This document shows, one piece after another, positions 1 through 29,224 of a stretch of DNA of 64,000 nt (position 1 is the first letter of the stretch; each line of letters starts with the position of its first letter). Under the pieces are notes generated by a model. It was not told the DNA's origin. It saw only the letters and a program-made list of their open reading frames with translations, and searched no databases. The position numbers were made by a program, and so were the translations under genes. The DNA is from Paraescarpia echinospica (Eukaryota > Annelida > Polychaeta > Sabellida > Siboglinidae): assembly GCA_020002185.1 (NCBI GenBank), contig CM034541.1, forward strand, positions 32,735,852 through 32,799,851, in the 5' to 3' direction.

Positions 1-1455
1 CTCGCCAAGAAGTGAGTCTGGTTAAAATGACGTATTTTGAAGCATCATTGTTTGGGATTCATTCATCGATGCATGTACCACAATTAGAAATGTTATATAT
101 TATGTATGTTTTCGATAACGAAATGAAATTACGAAATAGCACCATACAAAATAAAAAGTACCTTAAGGCAAGAGAACGTGAACCCATGCCCTCTGAGCGA
201 TGCGCCACCTAGTGACTAAGCAAGTTATGTGGCATAGAAATTAACAATGCAAAATCTAACTGTTGATTTATTTTATTATGTGACTTGTTTCAAAACATAA
301 TACTCCTGGCAAGGGCTTCTTCTCATTTATTTTGTATTTCATAGTTTTCGGATTTAAGGTAAAGCCGCCTTACGGACAAACATATCAAAGCGGTATATTC
401 TCCTAGGAGCGTAATAAAAGCTGCCACCTCACGGCGCCTGGGTAATCGAGGCTAGACTGTATTAAGTAATGCAATACTATGGACTCTTTTATTCTTTTTA
501 TTTCAGCACTGCACGCGTGTGTAGACCAATAACAGGCTACAGTACAACCAAGATACAGAATGCAAGTACAATTCTAAAGCACACGTTGTTGCGTTATTTT
601 TCCTACTAGAATTCCTGTGATTCACTTATAATGAGACCAATTCTAAACAATGTTATCAGGAAGACACCATTTAAATCAAAGTATGTTAATTTATTCAAGC
701 ACAATCGGGGTTTATGTGCTTATTATCATGAAAAATATATATACTACACAAATACACACGTAATACATACGAGTACATGCCCCTAAACGCGTGCGCCCTT
801 GTGCGTTCCTAGTGTGTTATGATCGTTAGTAGTATAGGGGAGGTTATTGGGCCCGTGCACGACACCTTTGGTGACCTTTGGGCAAAACTTTACTAATAAA
901 AAACGTTGTAATTACCCCTAATCGTTTTCGGCAACCTACATATAAAAAAGATCAAAGGATTTTTTGACACTAAACGTTTTCCGCAACCTACTTATAAAAA
1001 AACGTGATGGATTACCCCCTCTAAGTACATTTGAGGTGCCACCTAGCGGTGAGTGTAGAGATCATTTCAGTTTGTCCCCTAGCGATCAACGCCGTACCTA
1101 GCGCGTGCTGACCTAAGCAATATATGACGCGGTTATATAACCGCGATAAAACCACTGTGTGCAGACTTCCCCCATCAGCCCTATGAGGATGCCCCGCTGT
1201 ATCCTATGTTAGCAGCAGTGCGATAAGCGACCGGCACTGCAGCAGCAGCAGCAGCAGCAGCAGTGGACTATGACCCCGGCTCGGCAGTATAGCTGGCTAG
1301 CGCTGTGCGTTCTAGTGGTGCGATCAAAACGAAACCAATCCGTTGTGCGTTTAAATAAATAAATAAATAAATCTAGTGGTGCGACCAAAACGAAACCAAT
1401 GGATAAATACGCTAACGTTCAGTGGGCCCCCCGTATGGCGCTGTACGTAGGGTGT
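1..1455. other. Intergenic flank with short direct repeats
   Basis: I see no convincing gene here. The stretch holds small duplications: a roughly 30-bp AT-rich unit ending in a TATAAAAAA-like run occurs at about 923 and about 971, and a 29-bp unit ending GAAACCAAT occurs at 1311-1340 and again at 1372-1400, separated by (AAAT)n. A (CAG)n run lies at about 1240-1262. The left terminus of the neighbouring Polinton should fall in or just right of this flank, but I could not identify a terminal inverted repeat. Confidence 0.5.
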
Positions 1456-1507
1456 TTATGCAGTGGATACAGACGAGTGGAAATGTGAGTAGTAGAGACT
1501 GCAGTAT

Positions 1508-2067
1508 TTATTGACTGCTAAAATTATATAGCCGCGCGCGGCCAATGCCCGCCCTATAGGGGGAGAACGGCGCGCGAAAGCCGCGCCGCGTATAGAGTTC
1601 GGTCGTCGGGGTGGGCGTATACCACGACCCATTGTTTCCTCGTCGGAGGAATGAAGACACGAGGCTGGTGTCGTCGTCGAAGTCATCGGCGTCAGCGTCG
1701 TTGATAGGTGGTGGTGGAGTGATTGGTCGAGGGGGGTGCGCTGTTGGGGCGACAGTACATACTGGCTTTGTTGCTGCTTCTGGCAGGGCGGCGGCCGTTC
1801 TGGTAGGCAGTTGGATTTCTCTATGAAATAAACCGCAATATATGTAGGCGTGTTTAAACAAAGGGCGCCAAAATAAAATGAGAACCATGCATGCATGCAC
1901 TTACGAGGAGGCGTTGTTGTATTCATAGTTGTGCTTGAAATAGCCAAACGGTGAAATGCGCCGTCAAGTGTATGCTGCGACTCCATGTATGAATGCGCCG
2001 TCAAACAGCGGCGGCGCATGACACTACGGCTTATCGCGATCGGAATGTGAAGGGAGAACAATGCCAT
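1508..2067 (-). CDS. Candidate spliced leftmost gene of element 1, divergent from the early genes
   Basis: Unrecognised. On the minus strand an ATG at 2067 opens a frame that reaches a GTAAGT donor (GT at 1904-1903). An 84-nt candidate intron ends in a pyrimidine-rich TTTATTTCATAG acceptor (AG at 1822-1821). An AATAAA polyadenylation signal lies at about 1505-1511, overlapping the stop of one frame. Two frames remain open after the acceptor; one is rich in Pro and acidic residues followed by an Arg-rich tail, with no domain I can name. The intron length is a multiple of three, so retention would not break the frame. The splice signals and poly(A) site are what support a gene; the protein itself gives little support. 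It would be transcribed away from the RPA-like early gene, sharing the repeat-rich 2.1-2.56 kb region as promoter. Confidence 0.3.
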
Positions 2068-2565
2068 ATCAAAAACAATAAACGAAAAGCTAAAAGCATG
2101 AAAGTAAGCGTTGTATATGATTAGTTAGGGCTCGGGAATCGTGTGGTGTAGTGATATTAGAGAAATTCGATGTAAAGACACATTTGACGATGAATGTACT
2201 GACATGACCGCTAACTTTTTTCCTAAAACAAATACCTCGGTAACTGCGTCGTATGTGTTAAGTACGCATGCGCGTTATTTTTTAAGATAACTGTAGACAA
2301 TGCCATTTCAAAAACAATCAACGAAAAGCTAAAAGCATGAAAGTAAGCGTTGTATATGATTAGTTAGGGCTCGGGAATCGTGTGGTGTAGTGATATTAGA
2401 GAAATTCAATGTAGATACACATTTGACGATGAATGTACTGACATGACCGCTAACTTTTTTCATAAAACAAATGCGTCGTACGTGTTAAGTACGCATGCGC
2501 GTTATTTTGTAAGATAACGGTAGACTAGGCAGTATGTGTTAAGTGCGCATGCGCCTTATTTTGTA
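2061..2565. repeat. Direct repeats upstream of the element 1 early promoter
   Basis: A block beginning near 2061 (AATGCCAT...) is repeated from about 2299 with very high identity over roughly 150 bp or more (shared AAAGCATGAAAGTAAGCG and TCGGGAATCGTGTGG stretches). Each copy ends in a GCATGCGC palindrome followed by TTATTTT. A third, partial copy of that ending runs at about 2540-2565, directly before the TATA box. Repeats of this kind next to an early promoter could be enhancer or replication elements; that role is inference. Confidence 0.85.
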
Positions 2566-2568
2566 AAG

Positions 2569-2575
2569 TATAAAA
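2569..2575 (+). promoter_or_regulatory. TATA box of the element 1 early transcript
   Basis: TATAAAA lies about 95 bp upstream of the ATG at 2664 and immediately downstream of the GCATGCGC repeats. Similar TATAAG motifs sit 30-60 bp before several other genes of the Polinton elements in this window. Confidence 0.6.
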
Positions 2576-2663
2576 CGGGTGAGAAAATGCTATGTTGTAT
2601 GACGCCAGTGTTCTAACGTATTGTTTCAGCAGCAGCAGCAGACGTTCTCCCGCGGCAACAATA

Positions 2664-2927
2664 ATGGCAGACGAGATACCAAAAAAGATGAAGGCGGCGC
2701 ACAAGCAGAGTCCGAAGGTGGCGGCGGCCGGCGTCGGTCAACAGCAGCAACCTACGGCAGCAGCAGCAGCGGTGTCAACGGGGGCGGCGCTGGTTAATAA
2801 CAGGCCCGTGGTGGTCAACGCGCCACCGCTGGTAGCCGCCGGTCGTAAGCGAAGCGCCGAAGAGGCCTTGGGGAGCGTCGAGGTGGCTGCGGGGCAGCCG
2901 GTACGCGTCACTCGAGCGCGAATATGA
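2664..2927 (+). CDS. Basic, Ala/Gln-rich early leader ORF (N-terminal exon of the RPA-like gene)
   Basis: An 87-codon frame starts at the first ATG (2664) after the TATA box. It encodes a low-complexity Lys/Ala/Gln-rich peptide with a basic patch (GRKRSAEEA) that could act as a nuclear localisation signal, and stops at a TGA at 2925. The frame shifted by one, open across the same region, continues without stop into the RPA-like domain at about 2953. Element 3 has a disordered N-terminal segment joined in frame to the same kind of domain. The simplest reading is therefore that this ORF is the N-terminus of the RPA-like protein and that a single indel near 2870-2927 has broken the link. No function can be assigned to the leader beyond possible nuclear targeting. 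Confidence 0.5.
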   Translation: MADEIPKKMKAAHKQSPKVAAAGVGQQQQPTAAAAAVSTGAALVNNRPVVVNAPPLVAAGRKRSAEEALGSVEVAAGQPVRVTRARI

Positions 2928-2952
2928 GTCGGCGGCGTCGACACGGGCCACA

Positions 2953-3408
2953 TTGGTGAGTCTGAGGGACCTAAAGTGTGCTAACAACGGCGTGTATAAA
3001 ATTAAGACGCCCGTTATGATCGACGCTGAATCGTACAAAGAGAATTGTACGTATTTGGGATGCTCCCGTTGTCGGCGAAAATTGTATCAGAAAAAGAAAG
3101 GCGGGCCTATGGTATGTCGAACGCACGGTGATGTGTTTGTGGCGACGAATTACTTCGCGTTGCGTGTGATGGTGAAGGATGGCGAGGACGACGAAGACAA
3201 GCTTTGGATCACTCTATTTGACACGCATATGTCTAATCTCGTCGAGTACCAGGCCGACTACTTGGTGGAGTTGATCGAGGAGCCGCTCCGCGATACCGTG
3301 CTGGAGTTAACCGGCACGGAAGTGGAGATCAGTGTGCGTAAGACGACTTGGAACGGGGAGTCTTCTTATACCGTGCGCACCTTGAAGAGATACGACGACG
3401 ACGTCTAA
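2953..3408 (+). CDS. RPA-like ssDNA-binding protein (Rep-A C-terminal type OB fold with zinc ribbon)
   Basis: The translated segment (about 150 residues) resembles the C-terminal DNA-binding domain of replication protein A large subunits. It has a zinc-ribbon CSRC pair, a second pair CRTH about 15 residues later, then strands such as FALRVMVKD and the RPA-like LWITLFDTHMSNLV, where RPA has W-V-T-V-F followed by a helix. It probably coats single-stranded DNA during protein-primed replication by the nearby polymerase. There is no ATG at the segment start; the frame is open upstream, so it needs an upstream N-terminus (see 2664-2927). A strong GTGAGT splice donor sits exactly at its beginning (2956-2961), so this domain would be encoded only when that intron is retained. 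The stop TAA at 3406-3408 overlaps a CTAAT branch-point-like motif. The fold assignment is by motif only. Confidence 0.6.
   Translation: MVSLRDLKCANNGVYKIKTPVMIDAESYKENCTYLGCSRCRRKLYQKKKGGPMVCRTHGDVFVATNYFALRVMVKDGEDDEDKLWITLFDTHMSNLVEYQADYLVELIEEPLRDTVLELTGTEVEISVRKTTWNGESSYTVRTLKRYDDDV
2956..2961 (+). promoter_or_regulatory. Candidate 5' splice donor, phase 0
   Basis: GTGAGT follows ...CATTG at 2955. In the frame that enters the RPA-like domain the exon would end on a complete codon (TTG, 2953-2955). All four downstream acceptors (3433, 3645, 3830, 3930) open long frames in phase 0. Element 3 has GTAAGC at the equivalent place (22042), also phase 0. Confidence 0.55.
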
Positions 3409-3433
3409 TGTGTGTTTGTTGTGTTGTTTGTAG

Positions 3434-3619
3434 AAGGAAGAGTGCCCGATACTGGTAGATTTGCTGACGCATGCAAACGTGCAACAACGAATGCTAAGGT
3501 GGCGTGGTCGTGAAATAACTGAGGAGGCCGCGCAACTACTAGCCGAGACGGCCGAGAATTACATAAAGGCGTTTAGGCTAGCCTACGAAACGAACTTAAT
3601 TATTAGCGTTCTTCCGTAA
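3434..3619 (+). CDS. Candidate alternative terminal exon A of the early gene (61 codons)
   Basis: An open frame of 61 codons with no suitable start ATG begins exactly after a GT/T-rich tract ending TTTGTAG (AG at 3432-3433), with a CTAAT branch-point-like motif at 3404-3408. Reading in phase 0 gives a small charged helical peptide (KEECPILVDLL... to ...ETNLIISVLP) ending at TAA 3617-3619. The other frames close quickly. No domain recognised. It is interpreted as an exon, not a free gene, because of the acceptor and the missing start codon. Confidence 0.4.
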   Translation, partial: KEECPILVDLLTHANVQQRMLRWRGREITEEAAQLLAETAENYIKAFRLAYETNLIISVLP

Positions 3620-3645
3620 CTAACAGTTGTGTTTATATGCTGTAG

Positions 3646-3873
3646 GAGGTGCGCCGCGTACTGCAGGATATGTTAGCTACCAACGAAAGGACACGTGCGA
3701 GGTACGACGAGGTTGCCGCGTTCGTAAGAACGCTGCTGGAACGTGGAGTGGAGGGGGTCTATAAAGAGGGAGGAGGAGGCCGAGAAGGAAGGTCGAAATC
3801 AGGCGGACTAATCAAAATAATGTGTTGTAGGAAGTGCGGCGCGCCAGGCGTGAATGTATGCGAGATTTCGTAG
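3646..3873 (+). CDS. Candidate alternative terminal exon B (75 codons)
   Basis: The frame starts right after an acceptor ATGCTGTAG (AG at 3644-3645) preceded by a textbook CTAAC branch point at 3620-3624. Phase-0 translation begins EVRRVLQDMLATNERTRARY and continues as a helical charged segment, then a Gly-rich stretch, ending at TAG 3871-3873. Its first residues match exon C (EVRRARREC...), so B and C look like diverged tandem copies of one exon. No known domain; the product would be an early regulatory or accessory isoform by inference only. Confidence 0.4.
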   Translation, partial: EVRRVLQDMLATNERTRARYDEVAAFVRTLLERGVEGVYKEGGGGREGRSKSGGLIKIMCCRKCGAPGVNVCEIS

Positions 3874-3911
3874 ACGCGTTGCTGACGGTGGTCACCGAAC
3901 GTAAAGACTAG
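3831..3911 (+). CDS. Candidate alternative terminal exon C (26 codons)
   Basis: A short phase-0 frame follows the acceptor TGTGTTGTAG (AG at 3829-3830), with a CTAAT branch-point-like motif at 3808-3812. It encodes EVRRARRECMRDFVDALLTV and a short tail, then TAG at 3909-3911. It overlaps exon B in another frame. The similarity of its start to exon B (EVRR followed by a helix) is the main support; taken alone the ORF would be too short to call. Confidence 0.3.
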   Translation, partial: EVRRARRECMRDFVDALLTVVTERKD

Positions 3912-3930
3912 GACATGCTTTGTGCTGTAG

Positions 3931-4527
3931 GGATGCGGAGTGCGTGACGCTAGCGTGTTGGACGCCATCATAGAGGAGGCGCTTGACGTGTCGGATACAG
4001 CAGTGCGCCGATACATCGAAGCGACTCATGCGCCGGCACCGATGTACGACGAAAGCCTGTACTCGCCGCTGGGGACGATGGGGCCGACGTGCGCTCCGTG
4101 TTGGACCCTATCGGAGGACGTCTCGCAACGACAAATCGTTGTACCGGGTAGGGGCCAGTTGGCCTGTCGCTATGAGCGGCTCGCAATGGCCATCCTAGCC
4201 GAGTGCCTCGGTGAGATGATACTGGAGCGGGCGCGCGATAATTGCGGCGTATGTGAGCCCAATGAGGGCTGTCCGTACGTGCATATGGCCGGCTATCGTG
4301 TGGGTCGTCCGAACCGCGTGTACACACACCGCTTCGACAACGCGGGGTGCATCGTAACGCGTCACTTCAACGCCGTGTTGGGAGCGTTTCTGCGTCGTTC
4401 GCTTTTACCGTGCTTTACGCGTCTCGTGCTAATACTTCACGATACTAAGGCGGCCACTGGTCAGCAGCCGCAAACGGGTCGTGCGGGGAACTGTATTTGG
4501 TCCAGTTCGTTTCGGACTGGCTACTAG
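3931..4527 (+). CDS. Candidate terminal exon D: Cys-rich early protein of unknown function
   Basis: A 198-codon phase-0 frame begins after the acceptor TTTGTGCTGTAG (AG at 3929-3930) and ends at the stop 4525-4527. An AATAAA signal lies 45 nt further on (4572-4577), making this the 3' end of the early unit. The product contains Cys/His clusters (TCAPC, NCGVC, then GCPYVH) that could bind metal, flanked by a conserved-looking Arg/Leu-rich C-terminal part. I do not recognise the family. An internal ATG at 4042 could provide an unspliced start, but the open frame begins exactly at the acceptor, which favours the exon reading. Confidence 0.5.
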   Translation, partial: GCGVRDASVLDAIIEEALDVSDTAVRRYIEATHAPAPMYDESLYSPLGTMGPTCAPCWTLSEDVSQRQIVVPGRGQLACRYERLAMAILAECLGEMILERARDNCGVCEPNEGCPYVHMAGYRVGRPNRVYTHRFDNAGCIVTRHFNAVLGAFLRRSLLPCFTRLVLILHDTKAATGQQPQTGRAGNCIWSSSFRTGY

Positions 4528-4968
4528 GCAGGGACTGGCACGACTACATGTCCAGCGCAGGAGCGGTCTCGAATAAAGAACGAACAATGCTTGCTTTGCA
4601 ATAGAACATTAGTAAAAATCTCGACTAAAGAACAAACAATGCTTGCTTTGCTATAGTAACAAAGGCGTTGAACGCTGTTTTGAATGTTGTACGGTGCTTA
4701 ATAAAACGTTGAAAATGTACTTTCCGTTTCAGAGTTACACACATTACCCAAAACAGTTCGAGTTACCTAAAAAAAAACACCGCTAGTGCGCAGCCACCAC
4801 CCTTTCCGAGTTACCCAAAACGCAGTCCGAGTTACCTAAAACATTTATCCCGCTAGGGTGCAGCCACCACCACCCTTTCCGAGTTACCCACATTACCATA
4901 AATGCAGTCCGAGTTACCTAAAACATTCCCCGCTAGGGCGCACCCACCACCACCACAGCCTCCACTGT
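4528..4968. repeat. Non-coding repeat cluster between early genes and polymerase
   Basis: Contains the early poly(A) signal (AATAAA 4572-4577), a 37-bp near-duplicate (about 4569-4605 and 4621-4656, core AACAATGCTTGCTTTG), and about three degenerate copies of a roughly 75-bp unit from about 4728 to 4955. The unit core is CCGAGTTACCTAAAACA, then CCCGCTAGGGYGCA and a CCACCACC run. The polymerase TATA box follows immediately. The repeats may be promoter or enhancer elements. Confidence 0.75.
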
Positions 4969-4974: not shown

Positions 4975-5018
4975 TAGCGGTGCTCGAAAAAGTAGCAGCA
5001 GTCAGTAGCCCTTAGAGA

Positions 5019-8000
5019 ATGCCGCCTTCTCCTACTAGGTGGCAATGTCCGAATTGCGGGGGTTATTTCGCGAAACAGGCGACGTTAGAGCGACACTCGA
5101 AGAGCTCGAAAAGATGCGGCAACAACGCGCTATGCGTAAAACGACGAGAGTGCCCAAAATGCGGCGCGACGTACACTACGCGCCACGCTATGCTACGACA
5201 CCTGAAGGAGCGGTGCGGCCGTCAGACGGTGCCACCGCCTGGTAGTAGTAATGAACCGGCAGCCGCTAGGGCGGCGTCACCCGACGGTCTACAGCGCGTC
5301 GTGGACGAGCACCGGCGCAGCATAGAGACGTCGGTAGCGCGCGGTGCCGTGCAGTCCCGCTACAACTATCGCATGACCGCCTGTACGAGTATGCGGGTGC
5401 TCGAACCGCGTCTGAGGGCGATGTTTCGCGAGCAAAAGAATGCCTTTAAAATTAACGTGTGCTACGGTTTTGTATTGCGCCACAAGGTGTCGGGTCGTTA
5501 CCGCTATTTTCATTCTTCCTGTAACTGCTGCGGCCGCCTCCTCGAAACGCCCGGCCTCGTTACCGATAGCCGTTCGTTCGAACGATTCCTCGACGCCGTG
5601 CGCACGATCGACGTACTGCAGTACGTCATCGCGCAGCGTCCCGACTCGGGCTGGGTCGTCGAGCTCGTAACGAACGCCATCTACTTCGTGAACGCCATCA
5701 TCGCCCATACTATCGGGTGCGTTGGCGAGACGCTTCCCGCCTACGTGCGCACCAACAGGGCCATCGCGGCGTTGACGAAAGATCGTCGAGGCACGCCCTA
5801 CGACGATCATCTATGCCTCTTCCGGTGCATCGGCCTCCACCTGCAAGGCGGCCGACGACGCGAAACGCGAAACGGCGGCAGAATCGATACGACCCGTTTA
5901 ATAAAAGTCGCTAAACGACTGCACGCGCAGTATTGCCGCGCCATGCGCACGACGGCCTCGAACGGTGTCCGCCTGAACGAACTGGAACGCGTGGAGACGG
6001 TTTTCGGCATCAACATCGCCGTCTATCGACTGACGGCGGCAAATGGTGCCGCCTAACTAGTACGTCTGTCGCTCGAAGCGCACCCCACGACCCTGAACGT
6101 CAACGTGTACGAGACGCACTTCTCGTACATAAGCGACCTGCGCGCGTACACGAAAACGTACAAGTGCGGAAAATGCGGCAACGCCCTCTGGAGGACCACG
6201 TGGGATTTACGACGTCACGAAGCGACGTGTGAAGGTGGCGTTCGTCACGTGTTTCCCGGCGGCGTCTACCGGCCGACACCGTCCGTATTTCAGCGGCTCG
6301 ACGACGAAGGCGTCGACGTCGGCGACGACGACCTGCGCTACTACCCGTACCGCGCGACGTTCGATTTTGAATGTTATTTCGCCGATAACGATCTACCGTC
6401 GGATACCGACAAATGCCGGTGGATAGCGCGACACGAACTGCTCAGCGTAAGCGTCGCGTCGAATGTCCCCGGCCACGAAGTGGCGCGGTGTTACGTCACG
6501 ACCGGTGATTCGGCCGAACTCGCGCGTCGCCTCATCGACGATCTGGAAGCCGTGAGCGCGGCGGCGTGCGCGGCTCTACGCCCCCGCTACGACGGGACCT
6601 TCGAGGCGCTCGACGCGCTCGACGTCGACTGCCGGCGACGGTGCGACAACGATGACGCGTCACCGTACGCCGCACTCGCCGACCGTCTGTGGACGCACCT
6701 GCGTCAAATTCCCGTACTGAGATTCAATTCCGGTAAGTACGATCTGAATGTCGTCAAGAAGTACTTGACTCCCCTGCTCATAACCGGCGACGCGCAGCAC
6801 ACGTCGTCGGCGTTTACCATTAAACGACAGAACAATTACATGTGCCTGACGACGTCGACGTTGAAGTTCCTCGATATAACTAATTACCTCGCGCCCGGCG
6901 TTAGCTACGATCGCTTTCTGAAAGCGTACGGCTGCGCGGCGACGAAGGGGTACTTTCCGTACGAACATATCGACGCGTTGACGCGCCTGGACGAGACCGC
7001 CCTGCCGCCGCGCGAGGATTTCTACAGCCGCCTGAAACGCGAGGGAATCTCAGCGAAGGCGTACGAGATTTGCGCGACGGCGTGGCGTGACGAGCGCATG
7101 ACGACGATGCGCGATTTTCTGATTTGGTATAATAATCGAGACGTGGCGCCGTTTCTCGAGGCCGTCGATCGGCAGTTCGCCTTCTATCGGCGCCGACGTA
7201 TCGACATGTTCAAGGACGCCATCAGCGTACCGGGGTTGACGTTGTTGTACCTGTTCAATGACCTGCCGACGTCGATCCATTTCTCGCTGTTCAACGAACC
7301 CAACAAAGAGCTGCACCGCCTGCTGCAGTCGCAGATCGTCGGCGGCCCGTCGATCAACTTCGCGCGCCACCACGAGGCCGTCGTGACGGCGATTCGAGGC
7401 GACGCGTCACGCCCGTGTCGTGCGATAGTCGGTTTCGACGCGAACGGCCTCTATCTGTGGGCAATAATGCAGGAGATGCCGACGGGCTGGTACACGCGCT
7501 GGCGCGCGGAGAACGCCTTTCAACCGGAACGCGTGCACCGCTACGGTCGTATGGCCGTGGAGTGGTTGACGTGGGAGGCGGCGCGAACCGACGCGCGTAT
7601 ACGTAACCAGTTGAACGGGCGCGAGAAGCGCATCGGAAAGTACCGAGTCGACGGCTGGTGCGCCGCCACGCGAACGGCGTACCAATTTCACGGCTGCTAC
7701 CTTCACGGCTGCCCGACGTGCCAGACGCACGTGACGACGAACGCCGTCAACGGTCAACCGATGACGACGCTGTACGCCGCGACGATCGCCGTGACGACCT
7801 ACCTGCGCAGTTTCGTCGACAACGTCGTCGAAATGTGGGAGTGCCAGTGGCGCGCCGTGCGACCGCCCGCGGCGCCGACGCCGCCCGACGAGTCACGATG
7901 GCGACCGGCGGCCGCCCCCATTACGCGCTCGACGATACTGGAGGGTGTACGCGATGGCTCTCTGTTCGGTCTGGTGCAGTGCGATATCGCCGTGCCGGAA

Positions 8001-9132
8001 GCGCTGCGCGCCAAGTTCGCCGAAATGCAGCCCGTGTTCAAGAACGTCGATATCGCGCGCGACGATCTCAGCCCGTTCATGCGCCGCTACGCCGAGTCGC
8101 ACGATCTCCTCACCCGACCTCAACGGATGCTCGTCGGTAGCTACTTCGGCGCCGAGATCGTGCTCGCGACGCCCCTCCTACGGTGGTATCTGGCGCACGG
8201 TCTCGTCGTGCTTTCGCCGCTTCGGCGAAACGTTCTCGGCGGCTCGACGCGAGGGCGACATCGATCCCGAAAAATCGATCATCGCCGATACCTTTAAACT
8301 TCTCGGCAACAGTTCGTACGAGAAAACGATTACGCGCGTCGATCGGCACCGGGAAATCAAGTTCGCCACGCCGGTCGGCGCCTCGATGCTCGTCAACAAC
8401 CTTCGCTTCCGGCAACTCGACGTCGTCGTCGACGACGCGCTGTACGAGGTGGCGCTGAATAAGCGCAAAGTCGTCTAAGGCCTGCCGATGCAAATCGGCT
8501 ATTTCGTCTACCAATACGCGAAATTGAGGATGCTCGAATTTTATTTCGATGTCATCGACGCCTACATCCCCCGCCCGCTCTTTCAGTACTGCGCTATGGA
8601 CACGGACTCGGCGTACATCGCCCTCGCGGGGCGCGACGTCGACGCGCTGGTGGCGGAAGAACGGCGCGAACACTACTTCCGGAATCGATCGCTCTGGTTT
8701 CCGGCCGAATGCTGCGACGCGCACGTGGACGCGTACGTACGACGCCGCGTCGCCGGACTAGCGTGGGAGGACGCGCCGGCCTGCTGCGCGCGCCGGCGCC
8801 TGTTCGAACGTCGAACGCCGGATCTCTTCAAACAAGAGTGGCGCGGCGACGGAATCGTGGCCTTGTGCAGCAAGACCTACTACTGCTTCGGCGGCGACAA
8901 CGGCGCAAAGTACAGCACGAAGGGTCTGAGCAAGCGTCAGAACGACATCGACGAGCACACCTTCCTCGCCGTACTGCGCGACCGACGCAGCGGCGTCGGC
9001 TGGAACCGCGGTTTCCAGTTGATAGACTCGTCCGTGTTGACGTATGTTCAAAAGCGCGCTGCGTTGAGCTACTTCTACGCTAAATGCCGCGTGCTCGACG
9101 ACGGCGTCACCACGGCGCCGATACTCGTCTAA
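5019..9132 (+). pseudogene. Protein-primed family B DNA polymerase of element 1 (disrupted)
   Basis: Replicative polymerase of a Maverick/Polinton. The N-terminus has zinc-finger-like modules (CPNCGGYF...H...C, CPKCGATY...H...C, CGKCGNAL...H...C). A segment with DDHLCLFRCIGLHL may be the OTU-like region reported in some Polinton polymerases. Exonuclease motifs follow (FDFECYF near 6363; FNSGKYDLN near 6723), then polymerase motif A-like FDANGLYLWA near 7434, motif B-like KLLGNSSYEKT near 8296 and motif C DTDS near 8599. The gene is broken by an in-frame TAA at 6054-6056, a frameshift (probably with a small deletion) near 8205-8225 and an in-frame TAA at 8476-8478. About 1,370 codons in all, normal for the family with N-terminal fingers. 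It converges on the protease; an AATAAA at 9237-9242 serves its 3' end. Confidence 0.93.
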
Positions 9133-12717: not shown

Positions 12718-13858
12718 TTATAGTTCCACGAGCGACTCGGCGTCGATCCAGCTGTTGAAGGAGGCCAGATAACCGCTCCATTTTACGAGTGCCTCCGGAC
12801 CGCCGCCGCGACGACGACGACGCTGTAGAACCGCCTCCACGCGATACAGTTTGTCTTTCGGAACGACTACTCGTTGTAGTTCCGGTTCGTAGAAGGCGCC
12901 CTCTACCGGCGTCCCGGTGTCGTCCTTCAGGCGATAAACGGGCGGCTCGGACGGGTGCGCCTCTACGACGGTGAAGAGCTCCTCGCTCCAGTTAGCCATG
13001 TATCCTTTTTTGAATTGACCCCTCGTCTTGCTGATACGTACGCGATCTCCCTCGCGCAGTTTCAGTTTTTCCGTTGGCCGCAGCCGACGTTGCCGTACAA
13101 TCGTTGCCATACGGTCTCCTGATTCGTCGCGTCGACACTCGCCGGCGTCCTACCGATGCTTCGGTGGTAGGTGTTGTTGTGCGATCGCACGAAATCCAGC
13201 AACGCCTTTACGTAGCGCAGCGTCTCGTGTTTCGTAAAATAGCGCCACATACGCGTCTTCAAAGTCCGATTAAACCGTTCCACGACGCTCGCTTTAGTCT
13301 CCTCGTTATGCGTCACGAAATGATGAACGCCGCGACTCTTTAGGAACGTTTGCAGGGGCCGGTTCAGAAACTCGGTCCCCTTATCGGTCTGCAGCGCGTT
13401 CGGCGTCTCGCCGCCGCCGCTCAGCAGGCGCTCGAAGGCCGCGACGAGCGACGGGCCGGACTTACTCTTCAACGGAACGCACCACGCCCGCTTCGAAAAC
13501 ACGTCGATGACCGTCAATAGGAATGTTATACCGTCGTTGTGCGTTTTCAGCCTAGTCAAGTCGACCAGATCGGCTTGCCACTGCTGGTTTCGACCGCCCA
13601 CGATGACGCGACGTCGTTTGAAATGTCGTTTAACCGGTTTGTGTAGGGTATAGGCGTCCTGCGATGCTAGCCACCTCTCGACGGCCGGTCGTCGGAGATC
13701 GACGCCCGGTGCAACCCATCGACGCCTCCGTAACTTCCCACCCGTTTCGGATCGAAGTAGACGCTATTCAGTTCGTCGTCGTCGTTGTCGTTTCGTTGCT
13801 GTCGAGTCGTTGTTGGATTTCGTTTTGGCCGACGACGACGACTCCACCAGGACACCAT
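12718..13858 (-). pseudogene. Polinton integrase with chromodomain (element 1, frameshifted)
   Basis: Retroviral-type DDE integrase. From the N-terminus: an N-terminal region (SVYFDPKRVGSYGG, 13.73-13.77 kb), then in another frame LASQDAYTLHKPVKRHFKRR, then the catalytic core with Asp in QADLVDL, Asp in LQTDKGTEF and Glu in KASVVERFNRT, all intact. After a third frame change (about 13085) come an SH3-like segment (GDRVRISKTRGQFKKGYMANW) and a C-terminal chromodomain (ALVKWSGYLASFNSWIDAESL), which in related elements can guide chromatin targeting. Frameshifts near 13660 and 13085 make it non-functional. ATG at 13858 is a plausible start but uncertain because the N-terminus overlaps another small ORF. 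Element 2 keeps only the 3' part. Confidence 0.9.
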
Positions 13859-15974: not shown

Positions 15975-16426
15975 TTACATGGCACTCTTAACAAAATCGA
16001 AAACACGACAGTCATTGTTCACTAAATCGTTCCCGAAAGTGTTCACAAACGTCTTCGTGGGTACACCTCGACTTCGGTGCAACAAGTACACGACACAGTA
16101 TTGTCCACACACGTTAGACAGCGGGCTTTGAAGCGTTCTCTTGTTGAAAGTCCAAGTCACGCAGTTGCTCTGTAGAAAATCCACGAATTCGACGTGTCGA
16201 GGTGGCAAACCGTAGGATTCGAAGTATTCTCCACGTCCGTCTTTTGGAATAAACATGCAGATCCAATGTTGACCCGGTTCATCGCTCGAATGAGTGTTGC
16301 ACACGAAAGCTGCCGGTAGGTCGTCATAGGAGTAGTGGGTAACCCGTCTCTAGGTAGTACGCCTCGAACAACGGTCCTAGTGTAATCATCCGCCGCAAGG
16401 AGTCTTTCTATCTGTGCCGTATCCAT
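15975..16426 (-). pseudogene. Adenain-like cysteine protease of element 2 (frameshifted)
   Basis: ATG at 16426 overlaps the capsid stop (TGATG). The N-terminal part (MDTAQIERLLAADDYTRTVV) reads in one frame to about 16315; the catalytic part continues in another, with His in GQHWICM, YFESYGLPP and the nucleophile segment NVCGQYCVVYLL, to a stop at 15975. Strong similarity to the element 1 protease around these motifs with many substitutions elsewhere. Without the polymerase next to it, this is the left end of what remains of element 2. One frameshift makes it non-functional. Confidence 0.88.
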
Positions 16427-17696
16427 CAGTAATCGTAGACGACGTTTCTGTTGCGGTCAATCTCCAAAACCGTCTCGAATACTCCGTAGACGACGACGTT
16501 GATCGTTTGGTCGAGAGGTTGAGAGTGCATCTCGACTCGTAGGTTGCCTTTATGTACCAAATTGAAATGTGGACCGTCACAACAATCTGGTGTGATGTCA
16601 AACGCAAACAGGGTGTATCCTTTGCCAAATTCGTCCCGACTGATGTTGTTTCCCTCGGCTTGAAACATCTTTCCCGTTCCAGCAAATAGATTACTGTAAC
16701 TTCTCACGTAGGAACCATCGTTGAAATTAGGCTGGCGTGGTTTAGCCGGAACCTGTTGCCCGTCGACGTACAATGCAAGAAAGTTCAAGTTGTTGTGCTT
16801 TACGTGGAAGGGTTTCTTGGCGAATGTTCCATTGTAAGCGTAGTTGTCTACACAACACAATACTATTCTCTTGGGTAAGACAACCAAATAAACGTTTTCG
16901 TGAGTGTGCAACATGGCACCTCGCGGTATGGAAAATACCTTGCAATCGACTCTTCGCAACGGATACTTGGCCTTTCCCTTTTGTAGCGCTTTGATGTGAC
17001 CCATCTGTACTGCAGGATTCAGTTTGGCTTTTCGTGCAAACTAAATTGCTTCGACTATGCGTACCTTGTAATCGGCATTGTCACCACCAGCAGCCATGAG
17101 TGCAAAAGCATCCTTGCTCTGTACTAGTCGAATTTTCACGTCGACGTCGTTCAATAGATAGCGGTCTTGGAAGAAAAGGTCGACGTGTAGACGACCCATC
17201 ATGTCAACGATTCGACTACGGGTAATATAGGTCTTTCTTTTTTGCAGACCCTTGTTTGCGTCGTCGGTGGCATCCATGTGTCCAGCCGTGTCTTTGTACC
17301 ACAAAGCAGTAGTCAGTTGACTCTTCTTCGCTTCTGCTCCGTGACTCAGGATAGGTATTCGTTGAAGGTTTGACGAGGGTACCGCTCAAAGACACGTCGA
17401 CTTGACTAAACAGAGAATGCATCTAGTTGTTTACTGGTCCAACAGGTGCGGCTTGATCGATGTCGTCCCCGTTTTCTTTGACTACACGTGCTCGCACCAA
17501 CAGGTAAGTATTGGCCACGTCCATATAATCGTCTCCCGATCCAGGCAATACGAATTCGATAGGACCACCCTTACCTATCGAGGCGACAGGCCGATGCTCG
17601 ACCCATTGTGCGTGTTCGATACTCGTTTGTGTGTAAACTAAACAGATCCAATTCGCTTTTGACTCCCTCACACGACAACTGGTGGACAAAAGCCAT
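16426..17696 (-). pseudogene. Major capsid protein of element 2 (nonsense codons and frameshifts)
   Basis: Double-jelly-roll Polinton capsid protein. Starts at ATG 17696 with the conserved MAFV, then a frameshift near 17640, followed by HAQWVEHRPVASIGKGGPIE. In-frame TAG at about 17420-17422, a frame change near 17350, then WYKDTAGHMDATDD, an in-frame TAG near 17041, NPAVQMGHIKALQKGKAKYP and LNFLALYVDGQQVPAKP, ending VYDY before TGA at 16426-16428. Collinear over its full length with the element 1 gene but clearly diverged and lower in GC, so the two are separate lineages, not a recent duplication. Confidence 0.9.
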
Positions 17697-17698
17697 GT

Positions 17699-18115
17699 CT
17701 AGCCGAATATGTCGTCTCGACGCGTCTTCTGTCGTCTGCGTCTCTTGGCGACACTGGCTAGGGTTCTCGTCGGCTTGCGTTTTGTAGCGCGAGGAGCGTT
17801 GCGTATGCCCGGAGGCCCACTGCTTCCCAACATTCTACTGATCATGTCCTTTCCTGTTTCTTTCACACGCCTCTTTGCAGATTCTTTAATGCTCTGTCCA
17901 GACAACACGTCGCCGGCCACACCCAAACCTGTCTTTAACGCTCCTTTTCCCTAAGCGAGTGCGCCTCTTTTTATGAGTGGCATAGCACTTCGAATGAGGC
18001 CACCGAACAAACTACCTAGACCGTGACCTCGTTGCACTCATGCCCCAACAAACACGGGCAATCCGTCGCCGACTTGTCTGACGTAGTAGTCTTCGTAGAA
18101 ATGATTACGACTCAT
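17699..18115 (-). pseudogene. pVI/pX-like small basic protein of element 2
   Basis: ATG at 18115 overlaps the penton stop (ATGA). Motifs: YEDYYVRQVGDGLPVFVG, an in-frame TGA, GHGLGSLFGGLIRSAMPLIK, an in-frame TAG soon after (about 17955), then a helix (SIKESAKRRVKETGKDMI) and a basic tail (KRKPTR...KRRRRQKTRR). It shows the uninterrupted layout that the element 1 copy has lost to a frameshift. The glycine-rich amphipathic helix plus basic tail is what suggests kinship to adenovirus pVI/pX minor proteins; the match is architectural. Confidence 0.7.
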
Positions 18116-18892
18116 GTTTCAAAAAATGATGGTTTGCGTCGTCGAAAGTGAAGTGTTGCCGTCACTCTACCTCGCTCGAATGGTACGCGACGTCCCGTGT
18201 CGTCTCTTATATTGATCTCGATGGTCGTAAATTCTTTGTGCAAGACGGGAACGTATTGTACATTGTCAAAACTTTTTGACACCACGTCTCCGTGTTTTCC
18301 TTCTATGGGTACAACCCTCAACATAGGGACGACGGTATCCCCGACCACAGGTGGTTCCACAATGTCGGTGTAGACGTACAGCGAGTAAAAACCCTGCGCC
18401 ATATCTACCACAGATTCGGCTTTTTTAACGTAATAGTAATCTGGTCCTTCTTCTTCGGGTGTGGTGTAAATAGCCTGGCTTAAACCTAGCAAACTCTGAA
18501 GTTTCAACGAGTACACTGAGAATGAGATGTTTTCTACCATATGTATCATCACTTGTTGTGTGATGTCACTGCAGCTCAGTTTTATTTACTTTTCTTTTAT
18601 CGGTGACTTTATGATTCTGTTGATTGCACGAATGAGCGCTTGGGGACTACCGTAGTGGCCTGCCTCGATATTCACCACATAAGGCGTACCATCGACATTC
18701 ACGGCAAAATAAGTGTCCTCTTCTCTCACGTTGAACCAACTGTGCGGATATTGAATTTCCACCAGTCCGCACTCCCACTGACTGACTAAACTGATGCATT
18801 GCGGTAAAGCGGTAAAAGTGGGTCAACGTGTTGTCGGGATTTAACTCCATAGACGCGTTGCTAGGCAATGTCAGGTAAAAATCAGACGACAT
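18112..18892 (-). pseudogene. Penton-like minor capsid protein of element 2 (frameshifted)
   Basis: ATG at 18892 (MSSDFYLTLPSNASM), overlapping the membrane-protein stop by 11 nt. The frame is lost after about 20-25 residues (near 18815); the middle (LVEIQYPHSWFNV-type segment, 18730-18770) is in another frame. The second half from about 18552 is open: VENISFSVYSLKLQSLLGL, VEPPVVGDTVVP, TIEINIRDDTGRRVPFERG and a basic end, with TGA at 18112-18114. Collinear with 11370-12242 of element 1. Confidence 0.82.
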
Positions 18893-19154
18893 GTTCACCG
18901 CGTTTCATAGACGGATTAGGTAACAGGTATCCCAGGCAACTGCTCAACAAAGCCGTCCACAGATTAGAGTTTCCGTCTGCTTTAGTCAGGTTGTAGATAC
19001 TGACCAATATAACGGTGTAGAGTATGACGATATGGCAAAAGAAGACGATTTCGGATTTCGGGCACGTATTTCCAAACAACACCCAACGTTTGCTGTTACT
19101 TCCGGTATCTTCGAGCTCTGTGTTTTCGAATCGAACGTTCGTCGTATCTTCCAT
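18882..19154 (-). CDS. Conserved Polinton membrane protein (element 2), intact
   Basis: 90 codons from ATG 19154. A short acidic N-terminus is followed by CPKSEIVFFCHIVILYTVIL, SIYNLT and NLWTALLSSCLGYLLPNPSM. The same two hydrophobic motifs are in the element 1 copy at near identity, while the N-termini are unrelated in sequence. The stop overlaps the penton start. Two-pass or re-entrant membrane topology is likely; function unknown. Confidence 0.75.
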   Translation of the reverse strand: MEDTTNVRFENTELEDTGSNSKRWVLFGNTCPKSEIVFFCHIVILYTVILVSIYNLTKADGNSNLWTALLSSCLGYLLPNPSMKRGEHVV

Positions 19155-19183
19155 GACACGAATGACGGTTCGATCGGTGTGTA

Positions 19184-19800
19184 CTAACCTTCATACGCGA
19201 CGAGCGACGCTTTATCCAACCAGCCGTTAAACGAGTCGAGACACCCTACCCACTCGATCAGGACCTGTGTCTTTTTCCTCGCTTGCGCTGCTGCAACACT
19301 TTCTCGATACGATAGACTTGATCCTCGGCCACAATCACTTTCTGTAGTTCTTGTTCGTAAAATGTTCCCTCTATCGGCGAATCTTGATCATCGATCAAAC
19401 GATAAACAGGCGGATCGGAACGATGAACTGTTTTGACGGTAAATATCTCGTCACTCCAGTTGGGTAAGTAACCTTTTTTGAATTGTCTCTTGACTTTGCT
19501 GATACGCACGTGATCGCCCACTTTTTAAACCAGTTTGACTTTTCCGTGTCCTTCATTTCCGTACAAACTTTGCCAAACCTCTTCTTGATTGATCACGTTC
19601 ACTTCAGACGCGTCATTCCAATACTTCTATGATAACTGTCGTTGTACGAATCGACTAGGTGGTGTAATACGTCCAGGTACTTTAACGTCTGGTTTTTCGT
19701 GAAATATCTCCACATACGTGTCTTCAGAGTACGATTGAAATGTTCCACGATACCCGCCTTGGTCTCTTCGTTGTGTGTGGTAAATGGTGGATACGTGGGT
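19184..19800 (-). pseudogene. 3' part of the element 2 integrase with chromodomain (truncated, frameshifted)
   Basis: Reads from about 19790 (THNEETKAGIVEHFNRTLKT, carrying the third catalytic Glu region) through YFTKNQTLKYLDVLHH and NDSYHRSIG, a frame change near 19600, the SH3-like GDHVRISKVKRQFKKGYLPN, another frame change near 19270, and a chromodomain end (IEWVGCLDSFNGWLDKASL) to TAG at 19184-19186. Homology to element 1 stops abruptly at about 19790, upstream of which the first two catalytic Asp regions, the GSN protein and the ATPase are all missing. This is the truncation point of element 2. Confidence 0.85.
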
Positions 19801-19895
19801 TGGTAGAGTTGTAGGGGGTGCACGAGGGGCATATCTGGCCCATGGCCTATGAGGGACCAGTAAGATGAGAGATCAGATGTCGACCGGCAGACGAG

Positions 19896-20270
19896 ATGAA
19901 AGATCCCGACGCTCTATTGCAAAATCTCCGTGAAGCGTTTCGGGAAAGAACAAGTGTTTCACAGTTACAACGAAGTTTCTACGAGCGCAAACAGTTAGAC
20001 GGAGAAACGATCACAGAATACTCGCATGAAATTGTGCAACTGTTAGGTCGACCGGAGAATGTGTCGCCAGAACACGTGGTAAACAGAAATACCATGCTTC
20101 GCGACCAACTTGTTAAAAATGTGAGCCATACCTGAGGTGTGAACTGAAGAAAAAGGTAGCGCAAGATCTGGGCAGTTCATTTATTACATGTAGAGAGAGC
20201 CATTCTGTGGATTTTGTATTTGGCTTACTTTCCCGTATATTTTCCAACAAATCTAACAAAATTAATATTT
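19896..20270 (+). pseudogene. Ty3/gypsy-like Gag fragment
   Basis: The translated segment (LREAFRERTSVSQLQRSFYE ... KQLDGETITEYSHEIVQLLG ... NTMLRDQLVKNV) has the pattern of the retrotransposon Gag capsid domain: helix with repeated Leu, KQ...E.I.EY motif, and D-QL-V segment. The frame shifts near 20125 and continues with an LR-EL-KK helix to about 20270. No polymerase follows. It lies where element 2 is truncated, so this insertion or a rearrangement around it may have removed the rest of element 2. Confidence 0.55.
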
Positions 20271-23589: not shown

Positions 23590-24418
23590 CAATGACTTCC
23601 ATGAATAAAACTTTACCAAACATATACAGAATCATATTGCAAACTTTCACTAACAAATGTGCAAACAAAGTTACAAACATACTCTTAAACTTACAAATTT
23701 GCGAACTTTCACTGACAAACGTCCAAACAAACGTACCAAACAAACTTTAAAACTTACAAACTTGCAAACTTTCACTGACAAACGTGCAAACAAACGTACT
23801 TTTGCAAGTAAAAAGGGATCAATAGATCAAATAGACACGTAAAAACGGAGCAATGGAGCAAATAGACACGTAAAAACGGAGCAATTGAGCAAATAGACAC
23901 GTAAAAACGGAGCAATGGAGCAAATAGACACGTAAGAACGGAGCAATGGAGCAAATAGATACGTAAAAACGGAGCAATAGAGCAAATAGACACTTAAACC
24001 GGAGTAATGGAGCAAATAGACACGTAAAAAAGGAGCAATGGACAGGTTCACCTCGTGATATTCAACCACAATGGACAGGTTCATCTCGTGATATTCCACC
24101 GCTTCCACCACAATGGACAGGTTCACCTCGTGATATTCCACCGCTTCCACCACAATGGATAGGTTTACCTCGTACCATCACACGTTTAATCTTACAAATT
24201 TGCAAACTTTCACTAACAAACGTGCAAACAAACGTACCAACATACTTTTAAACTGACAAACTTGCAAACTTCCACCGACAAACTTCCAAACAAACGTACA
24301 AACATACTTTTAAACTAACAAACTTGCAAACTTGCACTGACAAACGTTCAAACAAACGTACCAACACACTTTTAAACTAACAAACTTGCAAAGTTGCATT
24401 AACAAACATCCAAACAAA
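23590..24418. repeat. Minisatellite cluster (three different units)
   Basis: From about 23630 to 23805 and again 24185-24415 run copies of a roughly 60-bp unit rich in CAAACTTGCAAACTTTCACT and AACGTGCAAACAAACGTACC. Between them, about 23830-24035 holds six or so copies of a 32-33-bp unit (ACGTAAAAACGGAGCAATGG, AGCAAATAGAC), and about 24037-24175 holds three copies of a 40-odd-bp unit (ACAATGGACAGGTTCACCTC, GTGATATTCCACC). Open frames across these blocks are repeat artefacts. Confidence 0.9.
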
Positions 24419-24516
24419 TAGAGAACAAAGTTGGAGTTAAGCTCGCGAAAATTTAAACAACCCCCCAAGGTGGGTTATATAAATTTTCGCGAGCTTAACC
24501 CCAACTTTGTTCTCTA
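24419..24516. repeat. Hairpin-forming inverted repeat (37-bp arms, 24-bp loop)
   Basis: Left arm 24419-24455 and right arm 24480-24516 are reverse complements with about one mismatch (core TTAAGCTCGCGAAAATTTA). The loop contains CCCCCCAAGGTGGG, which can extend the stem. It separates the forward-oriented minisatellite from the central unit that precedes the inverted minisatellite. Confidence 0.88.
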
Positions 24517-24949
24517 CCTAACCCTAATTATATATTTTACACGCTAGATGGCGCCATCATGTAACGTAGTACTCCAATTATCCACTAGGGGGCGCTACAC
24601 CGGAAGTGACGTCTTACCGGAAGTCACTTGTCTGTCATGGCGGCCTCTACCGTTCCGCGATTCCCGGAAGTGTGTCGACGAATAGAGATCTATCATGGCC
24701 GGTAGATGGCGATACTCTGAATAGTTACATTGGTGTCCGTTGGGTGGCGCCATATGTCGACTGTCTCATGAACGCGCACAGTTTTTATGTTAAGGGAAGT
24801 CACGTGATGTACGTTCGGTCTGATTGGTTATGCAAATGAGATGACGCTGAAAACTAGTTTATATACCATGATTCAAATGATTCTGGTCTTTCCTTTTTCG
24901 ACTCTCGAGAAGATTATATCGTGTCTGGTCGCTCGCGCTATTTGTAAAT

Positions 24950-25120
24950 ATGGAATTGTGTCATTGTAAAGATGGTTGCTTCATATACATATGTTTTCCG
25001 TTAAAAGAAGCGATACCTCATACGAATCCCATGGCTGCCTCGTTGGAGGTGAATCCGAACAGATGGCCGTCTCTTGAAATGAAAATATGTGACGTGATTT
25101 TCTTCTCTAAAAAAGTCTAA
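24950..25120 (+). CDS. Small Cys-rich ORF (56 codons) with TATA box
   Basis: An ORF starting ATG 24950 encodes MELCHCKDGCFIYICFPLKE and a tail, with four Cys and one His in the first 15 residues. A TATATA motif (about 24859-24865) lies 85-90 bp upstream, a layout like the early promoters of the Polinton elements. No family recognised. It lies in the unique centre between the oppositely oriented minisatellite blocks. Chance occurrence cannot be excluded. Confidence 0.25.
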   Translation: MELCHCKDGCFIYICFPLKEAIPHTNPMAASLEVNPNRWPSLEMKICDVIFFSKKV

Positions 25121-25129
25121 GTCCTACCA

Positions 25130-25775
25130 ACTCTAAAAATTTCTAAGTCCTACGAACTATGAAATTTTCTAAGTCCTACCAACTCTAATTGTGTTGGTAC
25201 GTTTGTTTGAACGTTTGTTAGTGCAAGTTTGCAAGTTTGTTAATTTAAAAGTATGTTTGTACGTTTGTTTGAACGTTTGTCAGTGCAAGTTTGCAACTTT
25301 TTAAGTTTACAAGTGCGTTAGTAATTTTGTTTGAACGTTTGTCAGTGCAAGTTTGCAAGTTTGTTAGTTTAGAAGTATGTTTGTACATTTGTTTGGACGT
25401 TTGTCGGTGGAAGTGTGCAAGTTTGTCAGTTTAAAAGTATGTTGGTACGTTTGTTTGCACGTTTGTTAGTGCGAGTTTGCAAGTTTGTTAGTTTACAAGT
25501 GTGTGGGTACGTTTGTTTGGACATTTGTTAGTGCAACTTTGCAAGTTTGTTAGTTTACTAGTGTGTTGGTACGTTTGTTTGGACGTTTGTTAGTGCGAGT
25601 TTGCAAGTTTGTTAGTTTAAAAGTATGTTGGTACGTTTGTTTGCACATTTGTTAGTGCAAGTTTGCAAGTTTGTTAGTTTACAAGTGTGTTGGTACGTTT
25701 GTTAGTGCACGTTTGGAAGTTTGTTAGTTTAAAAGTATGTTGGTACGTTTGTTTGCACATTTGTTAGTGCAAGTT
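25130..25775. repeat. 62-bp minisatellite, inverted relative to the block at 23.6-24.4 kb
   Basis: About nine copies of a 62-bp unit (GGTACGTTTGTTTG, AACGTTTGTTAGTGCAAGTT, TGCAAGTTTGTTAGTTT) run from about 25195. This is the reverse complement of the unit at 23630-23805 and 24185-24415, so the two blocks form a large inverted repeat around 24.42-25.19 kb. It is preceded (25095-25190) by a short tandem TTCTAAGTCCTACCAACTC. Confidence 0.9.
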
Positions 25776-25776
25776 T

Positions 25777-25920
25777 GGAGAGAGAGAGAAGGAGAGGGAG
25801 GGAGGGAGGGAGGAGGGGAGGAGGGAGGGAAGGAGGGAGGGAGGGAGGGAGGGAGGGAGGGAGGAGGGAGGGAGGGAGGAGGGGAGGGAGGGAGGGAGGG
25901 AGGGAGGGAGGGAGGGAGGG
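25777..25920. repeat. Polypurine (GGGA/GGA)n microsatellite
   Basis: About 140 bp of almost uninterrupted purines (GAGAGAG then GGGAGGGAGG repeats). It could form triplex or quadruplex structures; the open frames on both strands are low-complexity artefacts. Confidence 0.95.
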
Positions 25921-29220: not shown

Positions 29221-29224
29221 AAAA

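Follow-up and report, generated by a model that had tools for sequence, protein, structure and literature searches.

A putative alternatively spliced early transcription unit in a Polinton-type element of Paraescarpia echinospica, with an RPA-like gene in its retained intron

Introduction

A stretch of 64,000 nucleotides (nt) from the siboglinid annelid Paraescarpia echinospica (GenBank assembly GCA_020002185.1, contig CM034541.1, forward-strand positions 32,735,852 to 32,799,851; hereafter the window) holds an element that is Polinton-type by gene content. Upstream of its zinc-finger and polymerase genes, a leader, an RPA-like open reading frame (ORF) and four further open frames, here called A to D, are packed between window positions 2664 and 4577. 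How are so many frames expressed from so little DNA? An initial annotation of the window had proposed that one early promoter and one leader serve five alternative C-termini through a single splice donor and four acceptors, with the RPA-like protein encoded by the retained intron. Here, we weigh this proposal against the conservation of the unit in related copies, and conclude that 2664-4577 is very probably a Polinton-type early transcription unit expressed by alternative choice of the 3' splice site.

Results

Layout of the unit

The window sequence bears out most of the proposed arrangement (Table 1). The GTGAGT donor marks where the RPA-like domain begins and falls between two codons of its frame, and all four predicted acceptors lie in a T/G-rich context ending in TAG, in phase 0. 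CTAAY motifs had been claimed for three of the acceptors and are found at 3405-3409, 3620-3624 and 3808-3812, which is 26, 23 and 20 nt before the respective AG, with none at the fourth; an AATAAA does follow the last frame. The RPA-like domain matches PF08646 (E 2.9e-7, 30.8 bits) above the Pfam cut-off of 28.5 bits. Open frames of 61, 75, 26 and 198 codons had been described for A to D. Their phase holds at all four acceptors, and the lengths of B and D do not: 75 and 198 codons result from frame lesions in the window copy. The leader is lesioned too, as the frame opened by the ATG at 2664 closes at 2927, out of phase with the RPA-like ORF.

In the mechanism that we propose, a single TATA promoter would give one pre-mRNA ending at the AATAAA. 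Translation of the unspliced form from the leader ATG would yield the leader fused to the RPA-like protein; when the donor is used, the leader would be joined in phase 0 to one of the four acceptors, giving leader-A, leader-B, leader-C or leader-D. With phase 0 at every acceptor, the last three intron bases, TAG, form an in-frame stop directly before each exon. Stop codons would also be part of RNA signals: CTAAT encloses those of RPA and B, the A stop abuts CTAAC, and the D stop lies inside an AATAAA-type signal in 26 of the 43 copies with an open D frame, all 43 of which have AWTAAA between the D stop and 220 nt beyond it. Splicing and the number of isoforms are what we infer from the sequence and its conservation, and the assignment to an early phase is suggested by the unit's position, its linked replication-type domain and its TATA box.

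Copies of the unit in the genome

A search of the 1.08-gigabase genome with exon D scored 150 of 1820 candidates, so that the last exon occurs at least 150 times; all 150 scored matches begin at residue 1-3, that is, from the acceptor. We fetched 60 stretches, hand-picked from the 150 listed, and excluded one (L057, the same place as L027) from all tallies. The resulting 60 rows are the window and 59 copies, all from one genome; the copies are 78.5-97% identical to the window and no pair exceeds 98%. Among the first 20 copies the parts come in the same order, with RPA, A, B, C and D in 20 of 20 (some in part), and 19 also have the leader. Of the 60 rows, 40 have an open leader that is in phase with the donor and 42 an open RPA frame; A is open at 55-61 codons in 51 rows, B at 50-59 codons in 47, C at 25-29 codons in 56 and D at 220-239 codons in 43. 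All six frames are open together in 13 of 60.

Selection on splice sites and linkers

The donor GT is present in 56 of the 60 rows, as GTGAGT in 51, GTTAGT in two, and GTCAGT, GTGAGC and GTGAGG in one each; ATGAGT replaces it in two, and in the remaining two (L018 and L062, left out of the tree and linker-divergence tests) no donor was found. As a descriptive tally, 49 of 60 rows combine a GT donor with four pattern-recognised AG acceptors. We then placed base changes by Fitch parsimony on a FastTree tree of 58 rows, taking terminal branches as largely post-insertion decay. The 22 core splice bases (of which the donor contributes six, acceptor A seven and acceptors B-D nine) show no change on internal branches, against 12.5 expected from the unit average or 18.2 from the third-position rate (Poisson probability of zero, 4e-6 and 1e-8, respectively). 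On terminal branches the same bases changed 21 times (0.95 per site), seven of these at the donor; averaged over the unit, a site changes 0.57 times on internal and 0.99 times on terminal branches (1140 and 1993 changes over 2006 sites). Because terminal branches change at a near-average rate, the core splice bases are not mutational cold spots, and the combination of zero internal with normal terminal change therefore indicates that selection held them during element replication.

The longest run without internal-branch change in the unit, 3805-3832, covers the C acceptor and its branch-point-like motif, and five of the 14 such runs of at least 12 bases are the donor and the four acceptors. 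The linkers, from each stop to the next AG, measure 14-31 nt with one outlier. Their pairwise divergence is 0.021-0.063 (for linker A, the last 11 nt only) against 0.19-0.30 at synonymous sites, and 0.053 across 3619-3645. Internal-branch changes number five in 27 sites before B, none in 19 before C and two in 19 before D, and none falls in the TAG of the B or D acceptor.

Coding selection in the predicted frames

We compared the ratio of nonsynonymous to synonymous differences (pN/pS), with bootstrap intervals and from open-frame rows only, between each predicted frame and its two shifted frames. The ratio is 0.34 for the leader (shifted frames 1.31 and 1.78), 0.46 for RPA (1.54 and 1.48), 0.61 for A (interval 0.44-0.84; shifted 0.94 and 0.96), 0.44 for B (0.73 and 1.54), 0.60 for C (interval 0.29-1.10; shifted 1.30 and 0.96) and 0.30 for D, the strongest coding selection of all (1.24 and 1.89). 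For the leader, RPA, A, B and D, no frame but the predicted one has an interval below 1. Such coding selection, which for C alone is not significant, together with the absence of internal-branch change at the core splice bases, places the splice-site pattern beyond chance.

Divergent copies and a second family

A genome search with PF08646, in which 150 of 1240 candidates were scored, revealed more distant relatives. One more divergent copy, L084, the single member fetched of its class, has the same five-part unit and keeps the donor, the four acceptors and five open endings. A second family comprises ten loci (L077-L083 and L086-L088) with nine distinct sequences, L080 being equal to L081 over the aligned stretch. 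Its RPA-like protein is 30% identical to that of the window, with PF08646 scores of 48.1 bits in L078 and 38.6 bits in L087 and no PF08646 match in L086. The donor in eight of the ten loci is GTAAGT, which again opens the RPA-like domain in phase 0 and encodes Val-Ser as in the window family. The leader is shorter, at 19 codons in the measured loci and 16-20 in L086-L088.

After the RPA stop of the second family comes TTGTAG and then a phase-0 ORF, of 269-281 codons in five of seven loci and of 104 and 150 in the other two. About 900 nt further stands TTTAATAG, followed by another phase-0 ORF, whose frame runs beyond the locus end in six of seven. The donor and the TTGTAG acceptor are kept in L086, L087 and L088, which have diverged further (RPA identity 65, 73 and 85%), and the frame after TTGTAG is open to the end of the stretch in all three, which in L086 is only five codons. 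In the one second-family copy that we followed, the downstream zinc-finger/polymerase-type ORF is 38% identical to that of the window (E 1e-41). None of the downstream exons is similar to D. With the donor kept and the exons behind it unrelated, the switch is therefore conserved and the endings differ. The comparison of relatives that the initial annotation had called for thus turned out in its favour: GT/AG positions and phase are kept across the 59 copies and L084, and a GTRAGT donor recurs in the distant family.

Alternative explanations

Could A-D be ordinary separate genes with their own ATGs, the linkers serving as short promoters, sites of ribosome re-entry or processing signals? The initial annotation had held that none of the four has a suitable start codon, and had named conserved ATGs in relatives as one observation that would speak against it. 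For A, B and C its statement was too strong: an in-frame ATG occurs at codon 19-21 of A (47 of 51 rows), at codon 9 in all 47 open rows of B, and within codons 2-13 of C (in the 59 rows with the C acceptor found), and the B linker contains a TATA-like TTTATAT. Against separate genes, the linkers, at the lengths given above, leave little room for a promoter and contain CTAAY and TAG signals; for A to C, whose own ATGs leave some weight with this alternative, only the linkers and acceptors speak against it. Exon D clearly lacks an early start. Of 43 open copies, 34 have their first in-frame ATG at codon 42-53, five at codon 10-33 and four later, and the first 44 codons, before the first common ATG, have a pN/pS of 0.40 (0.26-0.59) against 1.16 and 1.62 in the shifted frames. 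No other single observation speaks as strongly for translation of D from a spliced message as this selection upstream of the ATG. The 18 pre-ATG codons of A point in the same direction without reaching significance (0.39, 0.15-1.03), and those of B (8 codons, 0.87) and C (3 codons, 1.22) are too short to tell. In the second family, the last ORF has its first Met at codon 76-77 in four of seven loci and at codon 13 in three. We consider separate genes very improbable. We give still less credence to readthrough or ribosomal frameshifting that would link all five ORFs (RPA and A-D) on a single mRNA without splicing: the ORFs do stand in tandem and close together, but an in-frame TAG directly precedes each exon, and linker lengths follow no multiple-of-three rule, falling into two or three residue classes modulo 3 among copies with an intact preceding frame. 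Such changes in length without respect to three argue against any translational link.

A third alternative accepts splicing and questions the number of products. It may lead mainly to one isoform, leader-D, with A-C as weaker acceptors or decoys, or B may be an internal exon joined to C or D through the GTAAGA at 3724. D is indeed under the strongest coding selection and A and C under the weakest, and a phase-0 GTRAG at 3724 is present in 56 of 58 rows (among open-B rows, GTA in 47 of 47 and AGA in 44 of 47). However, A and B each end in a stop of their own, are under coding selection and follow constrained acceptors, and the GTAAGA itself changed on internal branches (once, once and twice at 3727-3729). 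We regard this alternative as unlikely, while exon B may possibly serve as an internal exon in addition to its terminal role. One leader joined to alternative endings, as originally proposed, agrees best with the kept sites, their phase and the pre-ATG coding selection of D.

Besides the internal ATGs, several points weigh against the proposed mechanism. The coding selection of C is not significant, the interval for A overlaps A's shifted frames, and the D acceptor has no branch-point consensus before it. The other nine of the 14 unchanged runs lie in RPA or D coding sequence (seven) and in the promoter or 5' untranslated region (two). Synonymous conservation of the donor codons is unexceptional, as 34 of 62 comparable RPA columns are as conserved, the donor's two included; it does not stand out, and we dropped it as evidence. 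A 16-nt pattern for the spliced junction had no match in the genome, against 95 for the unspliced control; a reverse-transcribed spliced copy of that form, which would have been confirmation, was thus not found, although this search is weakly informative. In the second family, the nearly identical L082 and L083 have GTAAAT in place of the donor. All relatives come from one genome, those of the main comparison as 60 hand-picked of 150 listed places; the acceptor tallies used patterns that mostly require AG, a bias that is smaller in the tree test; and the tree was midpoint-rooted with parsimony ties resolved arbitrarily.

Promoter and gene context

The putative promoter and the genes behind the unit are listed with its parts in Table 1.

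Table 1. Features of the putative early unit and its surroundings in the window.
Feature	Position	Strand	Basis or remark
Tandem ~239-nt repeats upstream of promoter, each with GTACGCATGCGC-type motif	2058..2530	+	repeat comparison
TGCGCATGCGC palindromic motif	2544..2554	+	sequence
TATA box TATAAAA, putative early promoter	2569..2575	+	sequence
Shared leader exon	2664..2955	+	89-104 codons in open relatives; frame lesion in window copy
5' splice donor GTGAGT, phase 0 (predicted)	2956..2961	+	sequence, conservation
RPA-like ORF (replication factor A C-terminal type), read if intron retained	2956..3408	+	PF08646
Linker A: RPA stop overlapping CTAAT, T/G tract, acceptor AG 3432-3433	3405..3433	+	
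Exon A, 61 codons + stop	3434..3619	+	open frame
Linker B: CTAAC branch-point-like motif, acceptor AG 3644-3645	3620..3645	+	
Exon B	3646..3811	+	50-59 codons in open relatives; lesioned, window frame runs to 3873
Candidate second donor GTAAGA in exon B, phase 0	3724..3729	+	conservation
Linker C: B stop overlapping CTAAT, acceptor AG 3829-3830	3808..3830	+	
Exon C, 26 codons + stop	3831..3911	+	open frame
Linker D: acceptor AG 3929-3930, without CTRAY motif	3912..3930	+	
Exon D, protein with Cys/His-rich patch	3931..4527	+	198 codons after lesion; 220-239 in open relatives
AATAAA poly(A) signal	4572..4577	+	contains D stop in many relatives
Zinc-finger ORF	5016..6056	+	start of polymerase region, context
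PolB ORF	6057..8297	+	context; protein homology

In the aligned slice, 44 of 60 rows have TATAAAA, and 59 of the 60 fetched stretches match window 1-2664. The palindromic motif, which we take to be NRF-1-like, overlaps a segment (2538-2553) without internal-branch change by parsimony. The upstream repeats, two in the window and seemingly up to three in other copies, carry a GCATGCGC motif like that of the promoter, and look like a repeated enhancer.

Downstream of the unit, on the same strand, follow the zinc-finger ORF and PolB; on the opposite strand are an integrase of the rve type, an ORF with a chromodomain and a match to the adenovirus protease that stays below threshold. The genes form two divergent blocks. 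The PolB ORF has 1400 homologous proteins at E <= 1e-3 (7998 scored), which places it with the protein-primed type; the best 120 of these 1400 are 54-59% identical and all carry PF03175, although the window ORF itself, searched in pieces, did not reach the Pfam PolB model. The integrase matches PF00665 (E 3.3e-13), as in Polintons/Mavericks, and the adjoining ORF at 12721-13149 (minus strand) matches the chromodomain PF00385 (E 6.3e-8). The protease-like ORF matches PF00770 at E 9.4e-4 and 19.3 bits, under the cut-off of 21.3. An ORF that presumably encodes a packaging ATPase gave only weak Pfam matches, and those that we presume to encode capsid proteins gave none. No long inverted repeat flanking the element was found in window 1-24000, and another element adjoins near 16.4 kb.

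The RPA-like protein and the exon products

The RPA-like protein is probably the element's single-strand DNA-binding protein, judging from its domain. It resembles the Replication factor A C-terminal domain in scoring above the curated cut-off of PF08646, and in matching a chain of Replication factor A protein 1 in the PDB (6i52_C, E 1e-3); it differs from PF08646 proteins, among which it is placed by sequence, in being only about 150 residues long and fused to a viral leader. AlphaFold models of RPA and D were poor (mean predicted local distance difference test scores of 42 and 45). A collection of 5.8 billion proteins gave no match to the RPA-like query and one to D, a protein that begins at an internal Met. 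IMG/VR scans with PolB, RPA and D, as single sequences and as alignments, returned no relatives; D has no significant family in Pfam, PHROGs or PDB, and neither the leader, A-D nor the RPA-like proteins match adenovirus families in Pfam. Profile comparison among A-D revealed no convincing exon duplication. Within the RPA coding region, a 27-nt stretch without internal-branch change (3334-3360) holds a donor-like GTAAGA in phase 1.

Other features of the window

Part of a second element lies at 16426-19913 on the minus strand, with an ORF that we take to be a capsid gene and at least 150 scored copies of it in the genome (of 3479 candidates); the many copies with identical scores suggest a recent burst. 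Seven stretches near such copies, of which six begin ~3.6-5.1 kb away from the capsid gene and the seventh next to it, showed no match to the early or polymerase proteins of the window; the RPA profile gave one match there, at E 0.25. At G000:C2:62166515-62166886 and 18 similar places stands a third class of RPA-like ORF, in some cases 3-4 kb from this capsid gene; it has one in-frame TAG inside the match, which could reflect another splice arrangement or a shared lesion. Long tandem repeat arrays occupy 23608-25806 (31/62-nt periods, partly inverted copies) and 29170-29981 (33/38-nt periods), and ORFs with an Exo_endo_phos domain, presumably endonucleases of LINE-type retrotransposons (long interspersed nuclear elements), lie at 38987-40288 and 42952-43725.

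Discussion

A selected unit in which one leader would be joined to several endings implies that some Polintons use the host spliceosome to run a multi-product early gene in less than 2 kb. Protein collections miss such genes, as our RPA-like and D queries illustrate. We tentatively entertain a broader possibility, about which we remain doubtful: that Polintons of this host group, in at least two deeply separated families, ancestrally possessed a spliced early unit whose intron is the RPA-like gene, with splicing switching between the replication protein and fast-evolving, family-specific regulators tagged by the leader. If so, the Polinton side of the lineage that joins Polintons and adenoviruses would have given rise to, or shared in, early-gene alternative splicing, which would then not be a peculiarity of adenoviruses. 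The unit connects Polintons with early regulation of the adenovirus type in a way that can be tested directly, and offers a means to date that strategy. Contrasting internal and terminal branches in proviral copies also provides a general test of working RNA signals that needs no RNA data.

In adenoviruses, the E1B variants share the N-terminus of the 55K protein. Spliced early units in Polintons are not described in the titles and abstract openings that our searches of the open-licence literature on Polintons, Mavericks and adintoviruses covered. The passages of a 2021 survey that concern intact vertebrate Mavericks state that no introns were seen in their genes, said there to agree with Kapitonov and Jurka 2006 (PMC8097293). 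The window element is like the Polintons/Mavericks treated there in its PolB homology, its rve integrase and chromodomain, its protease-like (sub-threshold) ORF and its two divergent blocks, but differs from the vertebrate elements in its host and in a predicted conserved intron with alternative acceptors (PMC8097293). It likewise shares a Polinton-type PolB, rve integrase and chromodomain with adintoviruses and meldviruses; for alternate Penton C-termini, the relevant part of that study proposes frameshifting rather than splicing, and its single mention of splicing concerns an iridovirus (PMC11071296). The adenovirus single-stranded DNA-binding protein comes from E2A and not from a retained intron, where the RPA-like protein of the window would be encoded (PMC7851563). 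A parallel in the same paper is with E1A, E1B and E4 of human adenovirus, each a single early unit that gives several alternatively spliced mRNAs; there, as we infer for the Polinton unit, less and more spliced forms lead to different products (PMC7851563).

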